NCBI RefSeq assembly: GCF_000411255.1 | Contig: NZ_KE150413.1 | Location: 734,794-798,793, forward strand | Source: Paenibacillus sp. HGH0039 | Lineage (GTDB): Bacteria > Bacillota > Bacilli > Paenibacillales > NBRC-103111 | Direction of reading: 5' to 3' | Length of the DNA stretch: 64,000 bases | Shown here: in pieces, positions 51,945-63,304 of the stretch | How positions within the stretch are numbered: the stretch's first letter is position 1 | How the letters are laid out: every line of letters begins with the position of its first letter | The notes under the pieces: generated by a model | Database searches by the model: none | The model's input: only the letters and a program-made list of their open reading frames with translations | What the model was told of the DNA's origin: nothing | Program-made: the position numbers and the translations under genes

Positions 51945-52292
51945 ATGAATCGGAACTGGTTTTATGTACTGGCGGCGGGATTGCTGGAAATCGGCTGGGT
52001 TTCGGGTCTGAAACATGCGCATGACGCGTTTACCTGGATATTGACCGGAGCCGCGATCCTGCTCAGCTTCTGGGTGCTGCTGATGGCGACAAGCCGTCTG
52101 CCCGTTGGAACGGTGTACGCGGTATTTACGGGGATCGGCACGGCGGGAACGGTTCTTACGGAAACGATCGTGTTCGGGGAGCCGATCAGCTGGCTGAAGA
52201 TTGTCTTTATCCTGATTCTGCTCGGCGGTGTGATCGGGCTTAAAATCACGACGAAAGAACCGGAAGAACCGGCGAAAGGAGCGAATTCCTGA
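51945..52292 (+). CDS. ykkC: Paired SMR-family exporter subunit, YkkC-like
   Basis: The 115-residue, four-span protein has the SMR family's membrane Glu in LLEIGWV near residue 14 and the closely YkkC-like PVGTVYAVFTGIGTAGTVLTE. In paired SMRs two different subunits with opposite orientation form the antiporter. Its stop codon overlaps the start of ykkD by one base. YkkCD-type proteins export guanidinium or cationic drugs; which one here is not shown by sequence. Confidence 0.9.
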   Translation: MNRNWFYVLAAGLLEIGWVSGLKHAHDAFTWILTGAAILLSFWVLLMATSRLPVGTVYAVFTGIGTAGTVLTETIVFGEPISWLKIVFILILLGGVIGLKITTKEPEEPAKGANS

Positions 52293-52606
52293 TGGCATGG
52301 GCCGCACTGATATTGGCGGGATGTTCGGAAATTTTCGGCGTACTCGCCATGAACAAAATCGCGCGGAAGAAGACGATTGGGGCTTACGCGCTGCTTTTCT
52401 TCGGCTTCGGCATCAGCTTTTCGCTGTTGTCCTATGCCATGGAATCCATCCCGATGGGCACGGCTTACGCCGTGTGGACCGGAATCGGTACGTGCGGGGG
52501 CACATTGCTGGGCATGTTTATGTTCGGCGAGTCCAAAGACTGGCGCCGCATCCTGTTTATCGCCATGATTATTTCGGCGGCCGTAGGACTCAAGCTTCTT
52601 ACGTAA
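52292..52606 (+). CDS. ykkD: Paired SMR-family exporter subunit, YkkD-like
   Basis: The 104-residue partner has four membrane spans, the membrane Glu in CSEIFGVLAMNKIA, and SYAMESIPMGTAYAVWTGIGTCGG, very close to YkkD. It is translationally coupled to ykkC. No guanidine (ykkC) riboswitch motif was noticed before ykkC; a TetR repressor controls the operon instead. Confidence 0.9.
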   Translation: MAWAALILAGCSEIFGVLAMNKIARKKTIGAYALLFFGFGISFSLLSYAMESIPMGTAYAVWTGIGTCGGTLLGMFMFGESKDWRRILFIAMIISAAVGLKLLT

Positions 52607-54112: not shown

Positions 54113-56563
54113 ATGAAAGTTTCTTATCAATGGCTGTCGGAATATGTAGACGTACAGGGCTTCACGGCTGAAGACCTTGCAGATAAATTGACACGGAGCG
54201 GTATCGAAGTCGACATTGTCGAATCGCTGAACAAAGGCGTGTCGGGCGTTGTCGTCGGCTTTGTCAAATCGAAGACGAAACACCCCGATGCGGACAAACT
54301 CAACGTTTGTACGGTCGATGTGGGAACGGGTGAGGACCTGCAGATCGTCTGCGGAGCCAAAAATGTGGATGCCGGACAAAAGGTCCCGGTTGCCGTAATC
54401 GGCGCCGTACTTCCCGGAGATTTCAAAATCAAGCGCGCCAAGCTTCGCGGCGTGGAATCCCAGGGCATGATCTGCTCCGCCAAAGAGCTGGGCATGAACG
54501 ATAAACTGCTGCCGAAGGAAATTCAGGAAGGCATTCTGGTTCTTCCGGAAAATACCGAGATCGGCAAGCCGGTCGTGGACGTGCTGGCTCTAAGCGACAA
54601 CATTCTGGAACTTGAGCTGACGCCGAACCGATCGGACTGTCTCAGCATGATCGGCACCGCTTACGAAATCGGCGCGATTCTCGGGCGTCCGGTGAAGCTG
54701 CCGGAAGAGGGACGCAACGTTAATGTGGATTTCAGTACCGTCAAAGCGGAAGACAAAATCTCCGTTTCCATCGCCGCTCCCGAGCAGTGCACGCATTATG
54801 CGGCACGCCTCATTGAAGGCGTCCGTGTCGGCACGTCTCCGCTGTGGCTCCAGAACCGTCTGATGGCGGCGGGCATCCGCCCCATCAATAACATCGTAGA
54901 CGTTACGAATTACGTGATGCTGGAATACGGCCAGCCTCTTCACGCGTTTGACGCGGATCAGGTCGCGGGCGGCAGAATCGAAGTCCGCCTTGCGGCGGAA
55001 GGAGAGAAGCTGGTGACGCTTGACGATGTGGAGCGTACCCTGGAGCCGCACATGCTGCTCGTAACCGATGGCATCAAGCCTATCGCGGTTGCGGGAGTTA
55101 TGGGCGGCGCGAATTCCGAAGTGACGGAGAGCACGACTTCGATTTTGCTCGAGTCGGCTCGGTTTGCCGGCCCGTCCGTCCGTAAAACGTCCCGCCAGCT
55201 CGGTCTGCGTTCGGAGGCGAGCCTCCGTTTCGAGAAGGAAGTCAATCGGGAAGCGGTCATTCCTGCGCTTGACCGTGCGGCGGCTCTCCTTGTGCTTTGC
55301 GCCGGAGGCCAGGTCGCCCAAGGCATCGTGCAGGAGACCGTTCAAACCTTCTCCGGCGTCAAGATTCCGTTGAAGCTGGAACGTGTCAATACGTACCTTG
55401 GAACGGATCTTTCGCTGCAGCAGGTCAAAGAAATTTTCGACCGTCTCGGTCTGGAATACGGACTGCTCGAAGAGGGCTCTCTCCTCGTTCACGTGCCGGG
55501 TCGCCGTGGGGATATTACCCGTGACGTCGAACTCATTGAAGAAGTGGCGCGCCTGTACGGCTACGACAACATCCCGACGACGCTGATGACCGGCGTAACG
55601 ACTCCCGGCTCCCTGACGCGCGAGCAGTCCCTTCGCCGGACTATCCGCCGTCTGCTGACGGGCAGCGGCCTGCATGAAGTGATCACGTACACGCTGGGAC
55701 AGCGGGAGAACGCCGCCGACTATCCGGGTCTATATCCGGAATACGCGCCGATCCCGCTTGCGATGCCGATGAGCGAGGACCGCAGCGCGCTGCGCACGTC
55801 CCTTGTTCCTCATCTGCTTGAGGTTGTGAGCTATAACCGCAACCGCAACAACGATGATATCGCGATTTTCGAAACGGGCACGGTATTCCTGTCCAAGGAG
55901 ACGGCCTTGACCGCACAGCCGCAGGAAAAGCGTCTGCTTAGCATCGCGATGACCGGTAACTGGAGCGGCGCTCACTGGGGACAGAAAGCCCGCAAAGCCG
56001 ACTTCTACGACTTGAAGGGCGTGTTGGAACGGGTGATTTCTTACCTGGGCGTAACGATCGAATTCAGGTCCGCACAGAAAGAAGGCTTCCACCCGGGACG
56101 CACGGCAGAACTGTTCCTGCTCACTCCGGATGGAGAGCGCCGGTCCATCGGCTACATGGGGCAGCTGCACCCGACGCTTCAGAAGAAGCGGGACCTCGAG
56201 GACACCTACGTGCTGGAAGCCGAGCTTGATCCGCTTCTCCAGCAGGCCGACTTCGAAGTGGACTACCGCATACTTCCCCGCTATCCGGCGGTAGGGCGCG
56301 ATATGGCGCTCGTCGTGGATACGGCTGTACCGGTAGGCGATCTGGAACGCCTGGCGGCGGAAACGGCGGCGGAGCTGCTGGAATCCATCCGCGTGTTCGA
56401 TATTTATACGGGAGAACGTCTGGGCGAAGGCAAGAAGAGCGTCGCTCTGGCGCTGGTCTATCGTCATCCCGAGCGCACGCTTCAGGACGAAGAAGTCACA
56501 GAAACGCATGCGCGTGTCGTGACGGCATTGGAATCGGCTTTCGGAGCCGAGCTCCGCAAGTGA
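54113..56563 (+). CDS. pheT: Phenylalanyl-tRNA synthetase beta subunit
   Basis: The 816-residue protein shows the expected domain order: an EMAP-II-type tRNA-binding domain (~40-150; KHPDADKLNVCTVDVG), B3/B4 editing region (RPINNIVDVTNYVMLEYGQPLHAFD split in the text), B5 domain (RRGDITRDVELIEEVARLYGYDNIP region) and the C-terminal FDX-ACB anticodon-binding domain (PRYPAVGRDMALVVD). It completes PheRS. GGAGAAGGAGGAG precedes the ATG. A terminator follows. Confidence 0.97.
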   Translation: MKVSYQWLSEYVDVQGFTAEDLADKLTRSGIEVDIVESLNKGVSGVVVGFVKSKTKHPDADKLNVCTVDVGTGEDLQIVCGAKNVDAGQKVPVAVIGAVLPGDFKIKRAKLRGVESQGMICSAKELGMNDKLLPKEIQEGILVLPENTEIGKPVVDVLALSDNILELELTPNRSDCLSMIGTAYEIGAILGRPVKLPEEGRNVNVDFSTVKAEDKISVSIAAPEQCTHYAARLIEGVRVGTSPLWLQNRLMAAGIRPINNIVDVTNYVMLEYGQPLHAFDADQVAGGRIEVRLAAEGEKLVTLDDVERTLEPHMLLVTDGIKPIAVAGVMGGANSEVTESTTSILLESARFAGPSVRKTSRQLGLRSEASLRFEKEVNREAVIPALDRAAALLVLCAGGQVAQGIVQETVQTFSGVKIPLKLERVNTYLGTDLSLQQVKEIFDRLGLEYGLLEEGSLLVHVPGRRGDITRDVELIEEVARLYGYDNIPTTLMTGVTTPGSLTREQSLRRTIRRLLTGSGLHEVITYTLGQRENAADYPGLYPEYAPIPLAMPMSEDRSALRTSLVPHLLEVVSYNRNRNNDDIAIFETGTVFLSKETALTAQPQEKRLLSIAMTGNWSGAHWGQKARKADFYDLKGVLERVISYLGVTIEFRSAQKEGFHPGRTAELFLLTPDGERRSIGYMGQLHPTLQKKRDLEDTYVLEAELDPLLQQADFEVDYRILPRYPAVGRDMALVVDTAVPVGDLERLAAETAAELLESIRVFDIYTGERLGEGKKSVALALVYRHPERTLQDEEVTETHARVVTALESAFGAELRK

Positions 56564-56644: not shown

Positions 56645-56742
56645 ATAAAACAAGGAAACATATGGAAAATTCCGATGTCTTCAACCGGAACCGCCATGCA
56701 GGCGGCCGGATTTCGAGTGTTTAAACCGAAGGAGGATATCTC

Positions 56743-59700
56743 ATGAATTCGGAAGAAAAAACGAAAATCATCGTTGATATATATGGAAATGAATATAAAC
56801 TGAAAGCCCATAACAGCCCTGGCTACGTGCGCAAAGTGGCGGCGGAAGTCAATGACCAGATGGTCCAGATCGCCGAAAGCTATCCGAGACTCGATACCTA
56901 CAAAATCGCAGTGCTGGCGGCCGTCAATCTGACGGATGAGAAAGCCAAAGTCGAACAGAGATTCAGCGAGACGGAAAACCGGCTGAACGATTTGCAGCGG
57001 GCGCTTTCCAAGGCCGACGCCGCCGTGGAATCGGCCCGCGGGCAGCTCGAAAGAGCCCAGCAGGAGGAGCAGCTGCGCAAAGCCGAGCTGGCGGAAGCCC
57101 GGGAGCAGGGAGCCAAGGCGGCCAAGCGTCAGCAGGAGCTTACGGCATCCCTGGAGCAGACGAAGCAGCGGGCGGAACAGAATCTGCGGGAGTTGAACGC
57201 AGCGAAGGAAAAGGCCCAGCAGGGAGCGAAGCGGGAAGAGCAGCTCAAGGCCGAGCTTCAGCAGACCAGACAAAATACGGAGAAGCTTCAGCGGGAACAG
57301 GCATCTCTTAAGCAGCAGATGGAAAAAGACGCTCGCCAGGCCGATCAATGGAAAAAGGAGCTGGAGCAGGCGGCGGGGCAAATCAAGACGCTCGAAAGCA
57401 AAATCGGGCAAGCGGAGCGCGATGCCGAATCGCTGCTTGAGCAGCTGGAACAGGAAAAAACGGCGGCCGGTCAGGCAAGAGAGGAATCGGCGGCCGCTCT
57501 TCTACAAATCCAGGAAGCCGCGGAGAAGGAACAGACCCTGCGGGCCGAGCTTCAACTGGTCAAACAGCGCAGCGAGCAAGTCCAGCGCGATCTGCAGGCG
57601 TCCAAAGAGCGTGAGCGGCAGCAGAACGGGCAGATGGAGCAATTGCGGCAGGAGCTTGCGGAAGCGGCCCAAAGAGAAGCCGCGGTCCGGAGCGAAGCGG
57701 ATCAGGCGAAGCAGGATGCCGAAGCGCTCTTGGAGGAGCTGGAGCTTGAAAAAGCCGCCGCCGAAGAGAATCGGCTGCAGGCTGCGGCCGAGCTGGAGAG
57801 GCTGGCGCGTGAGCAGAAGCACACGGACGAACAGCTCCGACAGCTGAAGGACGAGCTCGAGCTGGCGAAGCTGGAGGCGGATGAAAGTCGCGAAAGAGAA
57901 GAGCGGCTGAATGCCGACGCGCAGCAGGCCGCTGAACGCGAGGAAATGCTGCGCAGCGAGCTCCAGCAGGCCCAGAGAGACGCCGAAGCGCTTCTGGAGG
58001 AAGCCGAGCTTGAAAAAGCCGCGGCGGAGAGCTTGAAGGAGCAGCTCCGCGAAGCCGGGGAGCGCGAGCAGACGCAGCGCACCGAACTTGCGCTGATGAA
58101 ACAGCGCGGGGAACACATGCAGCGCGAGCTGGCCGAAAGTAAAGAACAAACCGCACAGCGCGAGCAGAATCTGCGGGAAGCGGCCGATCAGCTGGAAGAA
58201 ATCCGCGACGAGCTGGAAAAATCCCGTAAAGACGCGGAGGCGCTTCTGGAAGAGCTGGAGGCGAACAAGGCTTCGGCGGAAGAAGAGCTGCGCGAATCTA
58301 CGGAAGCGCTCAAAGCGGCGCGTCTGGAATCCAAAGCGGTGCGAGAAGCGGCGGAGAATGAGAAAGCGGCAGCGGAAACGAGGCTGCGGAATGCCGAAGA
58401 AGCGCTGGTAACGGCTCGGCGGGAAGCGGAGGAAAGCCTGGCCGCAGCCCGTCTGGAAGCTGCGGAGAAGCTTGAGGCTTTGCAGAAAGAGTCTGCCGAG
58501 CGGTTGGAACTGGCGCAGCTTGAAGCTGAAGAGCAGCTTGAAGCATTGCGCAGGGAAGCGGCCGATCTGGAAACGGCCCGGAATGCGGCCGATGCGCAGC
58601 TGGAAGCTCTGAAACGGCAAAGCGCCGAAGAGCTGGAACTGGCCCAGATGGAAGCCGAGGAGAAGCTGGAGGCCGCACGGCGTGAAGCGTCGGCGAAGCT
58701 GACGGCGGCCGAGAACGAAGCGGCTTCCAGGCTTCTGGCGGCCGTACGCGAGGCCGAAGAGATAGAGGCCGCCCGCAAGGAAGCGGCAGCCAAGCTTGAA
58801 GAAGCACAGCGTGAAGCGGCAGCCGCGCGCGAGGCGTTCCGGCAGGAGCTGGAGGCGGCGCGTGAACGGGCCGAGCAAGAGCTCCTGGAAGCGATGGAAG
58901 CGGCGGAACAGGAAAGCGAGGCGCGCAAGGAGGCCCAACAGAGCCAAGAGGCCGCTGAGGCTAAACTGCGCGAAGCGTCCGAGGCTCTGCGGGCATTGGA
59001 CCTGAAAGCGTCCGGCCTGGAAGCGGAGAAGGAAGAAGCTGCCGCGCGGCTGGAAGCGCTGGAGCGGGAAACCTCCGAGCGAATGGAAGCTTTGAAGCGT
59101 GAAGGAGCCGAAGAACTGGAGCTGGCTCAGCTGGAAGCGGAAGAACAGCTCGACGCCGCAAGACGGGAGGCGGCAGCGGAGCTGGAGGAATCGCGGCGCG
59201 AAGCCGCAGCAAAATTACAAGCCGCTGTACGCGAAGCGCAGGAGCTGGAATCGGCCCGCAAGGAAGCGGCGGATAAGCTGGCGGAAGCGCAGCGTGAAGC
59301 CGAGGCCGCGCGTGTAGCGTTCCGGCAGGAATTGGCGGCAGAGCGCGTGAAGGCCGAGCAGGAGCTGCTGGAAGCGATGGAAGCGGCAGAGCGGGAGACC
59401 GAGGCGCGTGCAGAGGTCCAGCGCGAGAAAGACAACGCCGAGGCCAAGCTGCGCGAAACGTCCGAAGCGCTGCAAGCCGCTGAGCGTAAAGCGGCCGAGC
59501 TGGAAGCAGAGAAGGAAGCTTCCTTGGCGCAGCTGGAAGCTCTGAAGCGGGAAAGCGCGGATGAGCTGGAACTGGCTCAACTGGAGGCGGAAGAGCGCCT
59601 GGAAGCCGTGCGCAGAGAAGCGGCGGCCGAACTGAAAGCCGCGGAGAACGCTGCCGCGGAGAAACTTCTGGCGGCGGAGCGCAGGGCCGAAGAGCTGCAG

Positions 59701-61965
59701 GCCGCCCGCAAGGAGACAGCGGACAAGCTTGAAGGGGTACGCCGTGAGGCCGAGGCTGCGCAGGAAGCGCTTCGTCTGGAGCTGGCCGAAGAGCGCGAGA
59801 GAGCGGAGCTGGCTCAGCTTGAAGCGGAAGAGCGCCTGGAAGCCCTGCGCAAGGAAGCGGCGGCTGAGCGGGAGGCCGCGGAGAACACTGCCGCAGAGAA
59901 ACTTCTGGCGGCGGAGCGCAAGGCGGAAGAGCTGGAATCCGCCCGCAAAGAGACGGCGGTGCAGTTGGAAGCGGCACGCCGCGAGGCGGAAGCCGCACAG
60001 GAAGCGCTCCGCCGGGAACTGGCCGAAGAGCGCGAGAGAGCGGAGCAGGATCTGCTGGAAGCGATGGAAGCGGCCGAACGGGAGACCGAGGCGCGTCTGG
60101 CGGTCCAGCGTGAGAAGGAAGCCGCGGAAGCGCGCATTCGCGAGACGGAGCAGGCGCTTGCGGCCGTCCGGCAGGAAGCCGGAGAACTGGCGGCTTCCCG
60201 CAGCGAAGCGGCGGAGGAATTGGCGGCCGCCCGGAGAGATTTCGCCGAACAGCTCGAGTTTGCGGAGCTGGAGGCGGCGGAGAAGCTGCAGGAGGCTCAG
60301 AGGGAAGCGGCCGAGAAGCTGGCTTCCGCACAGCGGGAAGCCGAAGCCGCCCATCAGCGCGAACTTGCCGCGGAACGCGAACGTGCCGAGCGGGAGCTGC
60401 TGGAGACGGCGGGAGCGGCGGAGCGGGACAGAGCGGCCCGGGAAGCGGCCGAAATGGAGAAGGCCGACGCCCTAGCCAAGCTGCGCGAAACCTCCGAAGC
60501 GCTTGAAGCGGCCCGGCAGGAAGCGGTGCAGATGCGCGAATCGGCCGCGAAGCTTGTCGAAACGCTCCGTGCGGAGCTGACGGGGGCGCGTCAGGATGCG
60601 GAAGCCCTGCTCGAAGACCTCGAGCAGGACAAATCCGCGGCGGACGAGGAGCTGCGGAAAGTGTCCGAAGCTCTGCGCGCCGCACAGGAGGAAGCGGCAG
60701 CCGCCGCAAACGCCGCTAATGCCGCGAAAGCCGCGGAGCGGGATGCGGAAGCCCGCGCAGCCTCCGTAGGGGAGGAAATGGCGGTCCGCCTGAAAGCCGC
60801 CGAAGAGCGCGAAGAAGCGCTCCGCGGCGAGCTGGAGCAGGCGCGCCGGGATGCCGAAGCACTGCTGGAAGACCTGGAGCAGGGGCAGAGCACCGCGGAC
60901 GAGCGGCTCCGTGAAGCGGAGAAGGCGCTGGAAGAAGCGCGCTTGGAAGTGGAACGCGCCCGTGAAGACCGCGCCAAGCTGGAGGTTTCTCTTAAGGAAG
61001 AACTGACCGAAACGCTTAAGCAGGGTGAACTCATGCTTACCCAGGTGGCCGCTGCCCGCGAGAAGGCCGACAAAGAACTTGCGTCGGAACGCGGCCGTTC
61101 GGCCCAAGAGCGGCTTGCGGCGGCTGAACTTGCCGCCCAGTTGGAGGGAGCCCTCAAACGTGAAGAGACACTTCGGGCTGAGTTGAACCAGGCGCGTCAG
61201 GACGCGGAAGCGCTCCTCGAAGATTTGGAGCAAGGCCAGGGCGCGGCGGCGGCTAAGCTGCAGGAAACGGCTGCCGTATTGGAGGCCGCCCGCGAAGCCG
61301 CGGTACGCGAGCTGGCAGCCGAGCGCGACAAGTCCGCCGAAGAACGTCAGAAAGCCGAAGAGCTTGCCGAACAGCTCCATGCGGCGGTTTCCGGCCGGGA
61401 CGAAGCGGCAGCAAGAGAGGCTAAGCTGCGCGAGGAGCTGAGCCAGGCGAAAGCGTCCGGTGAGGCGCTGAATGCCGAGCTGACGGCCGCCCTCCGCGAA
61501 GTTGCCGCAACCCAGCAGATGGCTCACGAGCAGGTGCTTCAGGAGCAGTCCATCCGCCGGGAGCTGGACAGCTCCATGCAGGAGCGCCGGTCGTTGCAGG
61601 AAGAGCTGGACGCATACCGCCAGCTTATGGACGAGCAGGCCGATCAAGAGCGCGCCAGTCTTGGTGAACTCGGCGGCCTGCGCGGAGAAACCGAACAGCT
61701 CCGCCAGGAAGTGGCCCGGATTACCGAAGAACTGGAAACGGAAGCAAAGCGGAGCGGACTGCTCCGGCATCAGCTGGAGGAATTGGAGCAGGCTCACCTT
61801 CAGGCGGAGCAGGGCCTCAAAGAAATGAGCCGTCTGCATGAACAGACGAGCGGGCGATGGGACGAGCTGCAGGAAGAACACCGCAAGCTGCAGGACGAGT
61901 ATGCGAAGCTTCAAACGGAGTATAACGAATGGATTCAGCTTGTGATGGAAGAACCGAAAGGATAA
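56743..61965 (+). CDS. zapA: Giant ZapA-domain coiled-coil protein
   Basis: Residues 1-~85 are a clear ZapA domain (KTKIIVDIYGNEYKLKAHNSPGYVRKV split in text; SYPRLDTYKIAVLAAVNLTDE). ZapA promotes FtsZ bundling and is normally 85-100 residues. Here one uninterrupted frame continues for about 1650 more residues of Glu/Ala/Arg/Leu-rich heptads. Seven copies of a DAEALLE(E/D)LE unit occur (codons at 57421, 57715, 57979, 58231, 60595, 60850, 61201), plus units of ~150-160 residues starting ELELAQ(L/M)EAEE at 58630, 59113, 59563 and, shortened, 59806. There are no membrane spans. AAGGAGG precedes the ATG. Its position between pheT and cvpA is the standard zapA place. Confidence 0.88.
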   Translation: MNSEEKTKIIVDIYGNEYKLKAHNSPGYVRKVAAEVNDQMVQIAESYPRLDTYKIAVLAAVNLTDEKAKVEQRFSETENRLNDLQRALSKADAAVESARGQLERAQQEEQLRKAELAEAREQGAKAAKRQQELTASLEQTKQRAEQNLRELNAAKEKAQQGAKREEQLKAELQQTRQNTEKLQREQASLKQQMEKDARQADQWKKELEQAAGQIKTLESKIGQAERDAESLLEQLEQEKTAAGQAREESAAALLQIQEAAEKEQTLRAELQLVKQRSEQVQRDLQASKERERQQNGQMEQLRQELAEAAQREAAVRSEADQAKQDAEALLEELELEKAAAEENRLQAAAELERLAREQKHTDEQLRQLKDELELAKLEADESREREERLNADAQQAAEREEMLRSELQQAQRDAEALLEEAELEKAAAESLKEQLREAGEREQTQRTELALMKQRGEHMQRELAESKEQTAQREQNLREAADQLEEIRDELEKSRKDAEALLEELEANKASAEEELRESTEALKAARLESKAVREAAENEKAAAETRLRNAEEALVTARREAEESLAAARLEAAEKLEALQKESAERLELAQLEAEEQLEALRREAADLETARNAADAQLEALKRQSAEELELAQMEAEEKLEAARREASAKLTAAENEAASRLLAAVREAEEIEAARKEAAAKLEEAQREAAAAREAFRQELEAARERAEQELLEAMEAAEQESEARKEAQQSQEAAEAKLREASEALRALDLKASGLEAEKEEAAARLEALERETSERMEALKREGAEELELAQLEAEEQLDAARREAAAELEESRREAAAKLQAAVREAQELESARKEAADKLAEAQREAEAARVAFRQELAAERVKAEQELLEAMEAAERETEARAEVQREKDNAEAKLRETSEALQAAERKAAELEAEKEASLAQLEALKRESADELELAQLEAEERLEAVRREAAAELKAAENAAAEKLLAAERRAEELQAARKETADKLEGVRREAEAAQEALRLELAEERERAELAQLEAEERLEALRKEAAAEREAAENTAAEKLLAAERKAEELESARKETAVQLEAARREAEAAQEALRRELAEERERAEQDLLEAMEAAERETEARLAVQREKEAAEARIRETEQALAAVRQEAGELAASRSEAAEELAAARRDFAEQLEFAELEAAEKLQEAQREAAEKLASAQREAEAAHQRELAAERERAERELLETAGAAERDRAAREAAEMEKADALAKLRETSEALEAARQEAVQMRESAAKLVETLRAELTGARQDAEALLEDLEQDKSAADEELRKVSEALRAAQEEAAAAANAANAAKAAERDAEARAASVGEEMAVRLKAAEEREEALRGELEQARRDAEALLEDLEQGQSTADERLREAEKALEEARLEVERAREDRAKLEVSLKEELTETLKQGELMLTQVAAAREKADKELASERGRSAQERLAAAELAAQLEGALKREETLRAELNQARQDAEALLEDLEQGQGAAAAKLQETAAVLEAAREAAVRELAAERDKSAEERQKAEELAEQLHAAVSGRDEAAAREAKLREELSQAKASGEALNAELTAALREVAATQQMAHEQVLQEQSIRRELDSSMQERRSLQEELDAYRQLMDEQADQERASLGELGGLRGETEQLRQEVARITEELETEAKRSGLLRHQLEELEQAHLQAEQGLKEMSRLHEQTSGRWDELQEEHRKLQDEYAKLQTEYNEWIQLVMEEPKG
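58630..60249 (+). repeat. Internal ~0.45-0.48 kb repeats in the giant zapA gene
   Basis: Units begin at 58630, 59113, 59563 and 59806 (spacings 483, 450 and 243 bases). Each carries ELAQ(L/M)EAEE(Q/R/K)L; the full ones also carry LLEAMEAAE. The third unit lacks its second half, as if lost by recombination. Unequal crossing-over could change gene length. Confidence 0.75.
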
Positions 61966-62513
61966 TGACTCTTCCTTCTTGGAATGTACTGGATTGGTCT
62001 ATCCTCGTGCTTGTCGCCGGAGGACTTGTCCTCGGCTACGCGCGGGGATTGATTTCCCAGCTGGTTTCAATTGCCGGATTGTTTATCGCCCTGTACGTCG
62101 CCGTCCGTTTTTACGAGCCCGTTGCCACGTATTTATTGCAATGGCTTTCCCTTTCTTCTTTTTCCGGTTATGATAAATATGAGTTTTTGGTCAAAGGGCT
62201 GAATTTGGAGCGTTATATCGCGAATGCCCTCTCTTTCGCACTGCTGTTCTTTCTGGTGAAGCTTGCCCTTGGAATCGGGGGGAGAACGCTCAACCTGATT
62301 GCCCGGCTGCCTGGTTTGCATACCGTTAACCGGGTGACGGGAGCGCTGCTCGGAGCGCTGGAAGCGTTTGTGATTGCCGCGGTTGCGGTTCATATCATGA
62401 CAATTCTGCCGTCCGACTATGTTCAAGACAGGCTCGGCCAGTCCCGGTTTGCTCCTTATATCCTGAATGACGTTATGGAATGGGCCCGGAAATTGTGGCA
62501 GCGGAGCATGTAA
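61965..62513 (+). CDS. CvpA-family membrane protein
   Basis: The 182-residue protein has four hydrophobic spans and the CvpA pattern NVLDWSILVLVAGGLVLGYARGLISQLVSIAGLFIALYVA (positions 5-43, here abbreviated by its ends) and TVNRVTGALLGALEAFVIAAV. ATG 61965 overlaps the zapA stop (TAATG), so translation is coupled. YshB of B. subtilis occupies the same place after ZapA. Its role in membrane or toxin tolerance is not settled. Confidence 0.87.
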   Translation: MTLPSWNVLDWSILVLVAGGLVLGYARGLISQLVSIAGLFIALYVAVRFYEPVATYLLQWLSLSSFSGYDKYEFLVKGLNLERYIANALSFALLFFLVKLALGIGGRTLNLIARLPGLHTVNRVTGALLGALEAFVIAAVAVHIMTILPSDYVQDRLGQSRFAPYILNDVMEWARKLWQRSM

Positions 62514-62549: not shown

Positions 62550-62728
62550 ATTCATTTTAATCGGCTCTCCAGCGATCCGGTCGGCGTGAAGCGCGGAGGC
62601 TGGAAGTTGCACCGGTACTCCTCGTACAAGCAAGACTACGCAGATGCGCGCGGCACTCCCGCTTAAGCCTGCTTCCGTCACGGCGAGCGACGACGATGCG
62701 ATTGTGGAGCAAGGGAGGGAGAAACCGT

Positions 62729-63304
62729 ATGGAACAGACGTTAGCCGCCGGCAGCGTTGTGACCACAGCTTGTATCATGGCTGCAGCATGTCTGGGTTGG
62801 TTTTATGTATGGATTCGTAGAAAACAAAAAGCGGAGGGCGCAGCCCTTCTGCAGTCGGTCATAACGGCTTTGGCCGTGACGTTCTTTTTCCTGCTGCCGC
62901 TGCTGATTATGTTCGTGTGCGTCTATGCGGCTCTTCTCAGTGCGGGGACGTTCCTGCCCGACAGTGTCTGGTTCCAGCAGTCGGAAGATTTGCTCAGCCT
63001 GGCTCTGCTGCTCATTTTCGCCCAGACGCTGTTGAGCATTCCGGTGAGGCTGCTGCTGCGGATGGGAGCTTTGAAGGGGCTCGGGGAATTCCGTAAAAAA
63101 ATCGGGATGCCGATCGTTCCGCTGCAGCTCAGCCTGACGATGCTGACTTTCGCTCTCGGCTATCTGGCCGCCAGAGAATGGCACCTCACTTCGGTCGAAC
63201 TGACCGAAAGCGGGCTCTATTACGTGTCGATCTTGCCGCCTCTGGCCGCATTCGGTATTTTTACCCTTCTGCGCAGAAGAAGAGGAAACCATCCCGGCGC
63301 GTAG
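62729..63304 (+). CDS. Hypothetical multi-pass membrane protein
   Basis: The 191-residue protein has about five hydrophobic segments (VTTACIMAAACLGWFYVWI, FFFLLPLLIMFVCVYAALL, LLSLALLLIFAQTLLSIPV, LSLTMLTFALGYLAA, YYVSILPPLAAFGIFTLL) and a basic C-terminal tail. AAGGGAGGGAG precedes ATG 62729. No family is recognised. In B. subtilis polX and mutS2 follow cvpA; this gene stands in that place here. Confidence 0.7.
   Translation: MEQTLAAGSVVTTACIMAAACLGWFYVWIRRKQKAEGAALLQSVITALAVTFFFLLPLLIMFVCVYAALLSAGTFLPDSVWFQQSEDLLSLALLLIFAQTLLSIPVRLLLRMGALKGLGEFRKKIGMPIVPLQLSLTMLTFALGYLAAREWHLTSVELTESGLYYVSILPPLAAFGIFTLLRRRRGNHPGA

Follow-up and report, generated by a model that had tools for sequence, protein, structure and literature searches.

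The zapA gene of the window (the whole stretch of 64,000 nucleotides that was analysed) encodes a ZapA of 1740 residues, in which a normal ZapA head is followed by a very long helical rod and, at the far end, by a short tip. This tip aligns with the last helix of short ZapAs and recurs in the ZapAs of the order Paenibacillales. Our proposal, to which we give about an even chance, is that this is a ZapA carrying a coiled-coil rod of ~1630 residues inside its last helix and linking FtsZ over long range via the tip. The original prediction, made from the window sequence, is partly borne out: it had described the giant coil, with growth by repeats and a length that varies, and supposed that the coil, if continuous, might bridge the Z-ring to cell poles, nucleoid or far envelope; it overlooked the conserved C-terminal end, the match of this end to the short-ZapA helix and the order-wide spread. 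The features of the locus are as follows.

56743..61965, + strand: giant zapA gene, ATG start, 1740 aa, 1740 codons without an internal stop
56730..56735, + strand: ribosome-binding site AGGAGG (sequence)
56743..56997, + strand: ZapA head, aa 1-85 (Pfam match aa 11-83; PF05164, 64.9 bits; model)
56998..58497, + strand: N-terminal heptad part of the coil, aa 86-585 (period 3.50-3.56; dN/dS 0.08-0.11 in four close pairs)
58498..60492, + strand: middle part of the coil, aa 586-1250, with 11-residue and long repeats; site of large length differences
59554..60063, + strand: 237-bp (79-aa) tandem unit, about 2.1 copies (TRF; relatives' alignment)
60493..61842, + strand: C-terminal heptad part of the coil, aa 1251-1700 (periodicity; relatives' alignment)
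61888..61944, + strand: motif LQDEYAKLQTEYNEWIQLV conserved at the C-terminus, aa 1716-1734; it corresponds to the helix that ends short ZapAs
54113..56563, + strand: pheT, upstream neighbour of zapA (five PheT Pfam domains)
61929..62513, + strand: cvpA, downstream neighbour (PF02674, 102.4 bits; its longest reading overlaps the end of zapA)

The open reading frame was intact from 56743 to 61965 on the plus strand with no internal stop, as the original prediction of a single frame of 1740 residues had it. That its N-terminal 85 residues are a ZapA was confirmed as well: residues 1-86 matched the Pfam ZapA family (PF05164) with 64.9 bits at a cut-off of 23.8, and the sole PDB sequence match of the protein at E <= 0.01 was a ZapA (2MMV). 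The NCBIfam ZapA model NF010724 gave 66.6 bits, under its cut-off of 80, and the whole 1740-aa protein run against Pfam returned no family; a six-frame profile search of the own genome recovered the head with 67.2 bits. The window derives from a relative of P. chitinolyticus: over the first 120 aa the identity is 98% to P. chitinolyticus NBRC 15660 and 97% to Paenibacillus sp. UNC499MF, and the giant genes are presumably annotated in databases as 'cell division protein ZapA'. A predicted model of residues 1-300, built on only five aligned rows, has strands at 9-13 and 16-20, a helix at 26-45 and then a single helix at 52-299, with block pLDDT of 43-68 for residues 1-70 (the head, low confidence) and 77-94 for residues 71-290. 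The model of a 149-aa relative (L034) has a better head (pLDDT about 91-94 over residues 11-70), and the beta-beta-alpha-alpha head fold is present in both models. When the L034 model was searched with Foldseek, ranks 1-9 were chains of 2MMV, 9ISJ, 1W2E, 4P1M and 9ISK and two chains of 1T3U, of which rank 1 only reached E <= 0.001. These top chains are titled ZapA or FtsZ-ZapA, except for 1T3U, titled as an unknown P. aeruginosa protein, which we take to be ZapA. Helix alpha-2 is predicted by the modelling to continue unbroken from the head into the rod.

The gene was expected in the standard zapA place between pheT and cvpA, and the Pfam domains of both neighbours bear this out: pheS and pheT lie upstream and a CvpA protein (PF02674) downstream, a setting found in other Bacilli. 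In B. subtilis, too, zapA presumably lies beside pheT and cvpA. Of 50 zapA loci with a complete frame, 43 have pheT and 30 have cvpA, many of these loci having been fetched with short flanks. Elsewhere in the window there are two adjoining SMR-type small transporters of 115 and 104 aa (51945-52606), for which SugE was nearest in NCBIfam with a score below its cut-off, and a 202-aa protein downstream of cvpA (62696-63304) for which Pfam and NCBIfam gave no match. Open frames of 480-582 codons also run antisense over the coil on the minus strand (57502-58947, 58961-60709 and 60472-61914); they are probably a by-product of the A/E/L/R codon composition.

We read 51 complete proteins, 46 of them distinct, from 50 loci and the window, chosen by head match, length and family variety and not by their tails. 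All 46 distinct proteins, from 138 to 1892 aa, end in the motif L..EY.KLQ.EYNEWI.L, and in all 46 the last Glu-Trp pair starts 6-20 residues before the C-terminus. Anchored on this pair, Leu at -13, Tyr at -9, Leu at -6 and Glu at -3 are invariant (46/46), and Glu at -10, Asn at -1 (each 45/46) and Lys at -7 (43/46) are nearly so. A profile of 21 tails, run against the window's genome at E <= 10, found a single place, the giant zapA. Short ZapAs of other Bacilli usually end in DEYFRLKQEYDELLKLIEE, and EYxEW was absent from all 19 that were read, out of 20 regions fetched. We compared the two kinds of ending by a matrix made from the C-termini of 18 short ZapAs of other Bacilli (L105 was left out for its own expansion), scored on a giant-coil background. 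From residue 75 onwards the tip was the top window in 44 of the 46 proteins (42,740 windows), a count that, like the other tip-match counts, comes from related proteins and not from independent events. The match was in exact register in 44 of 45 proteins, where 300 column permutations averaged 0.6 and never went beyond 22; L076, whose tail is two residues short, was not scorable in the scan from residue 75 and was omitted from the register test. When the scan began at residue 55, with the head site competing, the tip ranked first in 35 of 43 proteins, second in six, and fourth and eleventh in the others; the three further proteins (L070, L077 and L081) were missed by the head pattern, and all rank first from residue 75. 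Across the same 43 proteins the first seven positions of the segment can still be made out next to the head, with a mean of 9.9 out of 22.4 bits, and its last 12 positions fit the tip (+6.1) but not the head site (-6.6).

At 1740 aa the protein exceeds the size of a short ZapA, and the C-terminal segment is present in it, displaced to the far end. Since the tip is in register with the C-terminal helix of short ZapAs, the rod appears to be inserted inside the last helix of ZapA, and the simplest reading of these alignments is such an insertion with head and tail kept. A plain insertion directly after the head was also considered and was refined, as part of the old segment still adjoins the head. 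The tip could also be a duplicated copy of the head-side segment, or could reflect convergence of two coil ends.

The giant-rod architecture is order-wide and therefore not peculiar to one genome. Within the genus of the window, zapA frames of 1609-1746 codons were found in 5/5 genomes, on which ground an assembly artefact was rejected. In the order the frames span 139-1892 codons. A ZapA match was obtained in 98 of the 104 genomes of the family, and the 92 frames that were left after setting aside those at contig edges (G006, G010, G014, G015, G066 and G075) covered 139-1892 codons with a median of 862, 80 being over 500 and 36 over 1000. Length follows genus, with a within-genus variance share of 0.27 against 0.79 when permuted (0/5000 as low), a clustering that shared descent alone would also give. 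In the order sample 388 of 393 genomes had a ZapA match, and in the other families of the order, among the matches listed, 68 of 75 frames were over 300 and 61 over 500 codons. As for the five unmatched order genomes, four of which were also unmatched in the family search, a true absence of ZapA was rejected: the tail profile found an open frame in 5/5 and the head was readable in the tail's frame in 4/5 (the L120 locus stops short of the head), so the first search appears to have overlooked them. The family search left two further genomes without a match, both of them incomplete: in G030 (78%) the tail lies in a frame of 177 codons that is truncated by the contig and shows no head, and in G011 (68%) no tail match was better than E 0.2.

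Outside the order the frames listed are mostly short. Other Bacilli, among the matches listed, have zapA frames of 81-219 codons, and the phylum outside the order, again among the matches listed, has mostly 83-267 codons, with seven frames over 300. None of these seven, which were partly fetched, has a coil after the head. As candidates for a giant ZapA elsewhere in the phylum they were rejected: six (L111-L115 and L117) stop soon after the head, so that their surplus length lies ahead of it, and L116 ends in a Pro/Gly-rich stretch. The ZapA of another order, L105, of 219 codons, carries an independent short RERDEL heptad expansion.

Beyond the head the giant ZapA is made of 23% Ala, 23% Glu, 12.5% Leu and 10.6% Arg; it has no cysteine, and proline is absent between residues 49 and 1737. 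The coils of the 46 proteins contain four prolines among 40,131 residues. The hydrophobic period of the window coil is 3.53 (z = 15 against 60 shuffles). Neither the scarcity of proline nor this periodicity would be expected by chance. Of the 'uninterrupted heptads' initially described, those at residues 90-585 and about 1245-1740 stood, where heptads are clear, but the description fits the middle (aa 585-1245) less well, power near period 3.5 being weaker there; the highest identity lag across the whole coil is 11. Helical periodicity exceeded shuffles in 19 of 23 coils tested, with z < 2 in L083, L052, L055 and L073. Among relatives the coil period varies, about 3.5 in some and about 3.65 (11-residue) in others, and the repeat lags vary by genus (7/28, 11, 18/36 and 52). 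Many tryptophans, often 11 (or 7) residues apart, stand along the coils of L016 (21 of them), L071 and L079. The internal repeats with a half-unit that had been noticed at the outset were recovered in the window DNA as spacings of 483, 450 and 237 bp (161, 150 and 79 aa, 79 being the half unit) and of 294, 264, 255 and 351 bp (98, 88, 85 and 117 aa), and TRF reported the 237-bp unit. Homology of the coils between genera was not shown by BLAST, in which 13 other coils scored just 9-35% higher with the window coil than with one shuffled version of it (L054, 442 bits and 369 shuffled; L074, 278 and 206). As far as these comparisons go, the spacer is free in sequence between genera.

Between close relatives the coil changes by whole blocks. 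The expected length variation was found, with ZapAs of 1740 (window), 1656 and 1672 aa. The window protein is 92.8% identical to that of L048 (P. chitinolyticus; also L068) over 1656 aligned residues and carries extra blocks of 79, 3 and 2 residues; relative to L049 it has 79 extra residues and lacks 11. The 79-residue block has the size of the 237-bp tandem unit, in line with the suggested change by repeat units, and its gap in the two closest relatives is placed at aa 943 or 996. L050 and L051 differ in length by 74 residues, and close strains thus differ by in-frame blocks of 74-79 aa. In four close pairs (window-L048, window-L049, L048-L049 and L050-L051) the head has a dN/dS of 0.02-0.11 and the last 40 residues one of 0-0.12; within the coil it was 0.08-0.11 for both heptad parts and 0.15-0.25 for the middle. 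Values of 0.08-0.25 along the coil indicate that it is under purifying selection, the middle part least. The wider pair of window and L050 (53% identity; coil-part dN/dS 0.18-0.26 where computable) says little, because synonymous change is near saturation.

Judged from sequence, the giant ZapA most likely cross-links FtsZ over long range or serves as a scaffold, and its tip would associate with itself or bind a divisome partner. Head dimers would grip FtsZ as other ZapAs do, and the two helices leaving each dimer would wind into a parallel two-stranded coil, at most about 245 nm long at a rise of 0.1485 nm per residue. The tip, which would derive from the segment that ends the tetramer-forming helix in short ZapAs, may join two dimers tip to tip or attach to another protein of the division machinery. 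As the tetramer segment now sits at the far end of so long a rod, we expect long-range linking: FtsZ filaments, or FtsZ and a partner, would be held together far beyond ordinary ZapA distances, and lineages would set their reach via in-frame gain and loss of repeat units. According to PMC12216130, the ZapA head captures the N-terminal tail of FtsZ, with Phe4 of the tail as the residue pointed to in Gram-positives, and the C-terminal helices make the tetramer; the function of E. coli ZapA requires tetramerisation (PMC12754632). FtsZ was found in 9/9 genomes, and Phe4 was present in 8/8 N-termini read, the window genome included, with the Met of M[FL]EFD taken as start. Against this model stand the 14-fold span of lengths, given which the order as a whole can require no one distance, and the short members of the order (138-250 aa), which retain head and tip without long reach. 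A more specific version, which we regard as tentative and somewhat doubtful, is an order-wide division ruler: an ancient FtsZ cross-linker of 90 residues, divided within its tetramer helix, would have become a rod whose length can be adjusted between a few and 250 nm. FtsZ would then stand at one end and an unchanging tip for docking at the opposite one, and each lineage would set Z-ring spacing or inward reach by its repeat number, close relatives already differing by whole blocks.

A rather unlikely alternative is that the rod serves as a scaffold in the manner of EzrA, with the head on FtsZ and the tip recruiting, instead of another ZapA, a different division protein (FtsA, GpsB or a cell-wall enzyme). 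The layout is the same, as EzrA coils are conserved by structure and not by sequence, with a conserved QNR patch near the C-terminus (PMC4113482); against this, the tip of the giant ZapA resembles ZapA's own C-terminus. None of the 46 ZapAs has a membrane anchor (Kyte-Doolittle > 1.6 over 19 residues), the giant ZapA lacking an N-terminal one with a maximum of 0.58 over 19 residues, and none has NRYR. In favour of the alternative, the best EzrA score in 60 order genomes was 71.9 bits, against 232-673 bits among the class matches listed, and none of the five order EzrA hits read has NRYR near the C-terminus (L139 has one mid-protein); in L142, a strong EzrA match, NRYR (the QNR motif as read) is at 535 of 594. 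These five hits, the TM-coil proteins L137, L138 and L140 and the larger secreted-looking L139 and L141, differ from the full-length 232-673-bit matches listed for other Bacilli. EzrA is not clearly gone, however: 25 of the 60 order genomes keep a match at E <= 0.001 and nine pass the model cut-off, and EzrA loss as the cause of the giant ZapA was not upheld. EzrA-like TM proteins exist in the genus, the one in the window genome being below cut-off; PF06160 was not matched at the zapA locus, and the only match listed for the own genome was C1:2423137-2424330, with 30.9 bits. Families with a short ZapA yet no strong EzrA match exist as well. B. subtilis losing zapA and ezrA was reported to be very sick, but this loss was mild in a strain also without MinC, UgtP and MinJ (both PMC11790237).

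The membrane-anchored EzrA-like coils L138:769-2664 (own genome, C1) and L137:359-2014, without NRYR, have PF06160 scores of 33.2 bits, short of the cut-off, and 69.5 bits, which passes it, and possibly represent diverged EzrA or a separate family. In L139:353-3046 (with a TPM domain, PF04536) and L141, a long coil earns EzrA model scores of 71.9 and 45.8 bits, and coils of this type are a likely source of false EzrA annotation.

That the length is neutral, with repeat slippage lengthening a helical linker of which only the head, the tip and helical continuity matter, we consider unlikely. Such drift would agree with the same ends across 138-1892 aa, with repeat lags that differ by genus, with between-genus coil scores so little above one shuffled coil and with the 74-79 aa block differences between close relatives, but long frames persist throughout the order (80/92 family frames over 500 codons), dN/dS is well below 1 along the coil, the coil is almost without proline, and lengths cluster by genus, with the above reservation on descent. 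We find it quite improbable that the rod consists of one helix on its own, or of an 11-residue amphipathic helix lying on the membrane, and forms no coiled-coil dimer. While 11-residue repeats occur in the window coil and many relatives and heptad power is weak at aa 585-1245, the period of 3.53 is heptad-like (z = 15), opposite-charge i to i+4 pairs reach only 0.12 in the window coil against 0.08 expected, and known ZapA heads are dimers, so two helices would lie side by side. Repeats of 60-80% identity could mislead assembly, but the chance that assembly or annotation has produced an artefact, or that the frame yields two proteins, is negligible in view of the long frames in 5/5 genus genomes and of a head and tail sharing one open frame in 51/51 complete cases.

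We return to the preferred reading, a ZapA with a long-range rod inside its last helix. Among the open-access papers listed in our searches, none mentions a long ZapA, or the ZapA of Paenibacillus, in its title or abstract opening. New here is a known ZapA family apparently enlarged up to twenty-fold from inside, order-wide and with both ends fixed, and the fixed tip is more telling than coil length alone. The finding bears on the spacing of FtsZ filaments and on what ties the ring to other structures. Paenibacillales are soil bacteria that include industrial and plant-associated species; their natural series of 138-1892 residues with the same two ends makes reach testable as a variable without design.

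The ZapAs of Bacilli (G. stearothermophilus 2MMV, B. subtilis type) share with the giant protein the head fold and sequence and the pheT/cvpA setting, and their C-terminal segment DEYxxLxxEYxELLxLLE has its counterpart in the giant tip; they differ in having no long rod, with 81-219 codons among the matches listed against 139-1892 in Paenibacillales. The ZapAs of E. coli, K. pneumoniae and P. aeruginosa (4P1M, 9ISJ and 1W2E) are alike in head fold, but their PDB chains have 91-107 residues and hence a coil of a few tens of residues. We know of no NEWI tip in these three. Their C-terminal helices form an antiparallel tetramer (PMC12216130 and PMC12754632). EzrA resembles the giant ZapA in being associated with FtsZ, with long coils conserved by structure only and a conserved C-terminal-side patch (PMC4113482), and differs in its membrane-anchored N-terminus, its length of about 560 residues and its QNR motif; no sequence relation to the giant ZapA was found, and the parallel is strong in layout and absent in descent. 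The E. coli ZapA-ZapB pair (PMC12754632) is alike in that ZapA cooperates with another coiled-coil protein as part of a larger network, with two proteins there and one chain in the giant ZapA.
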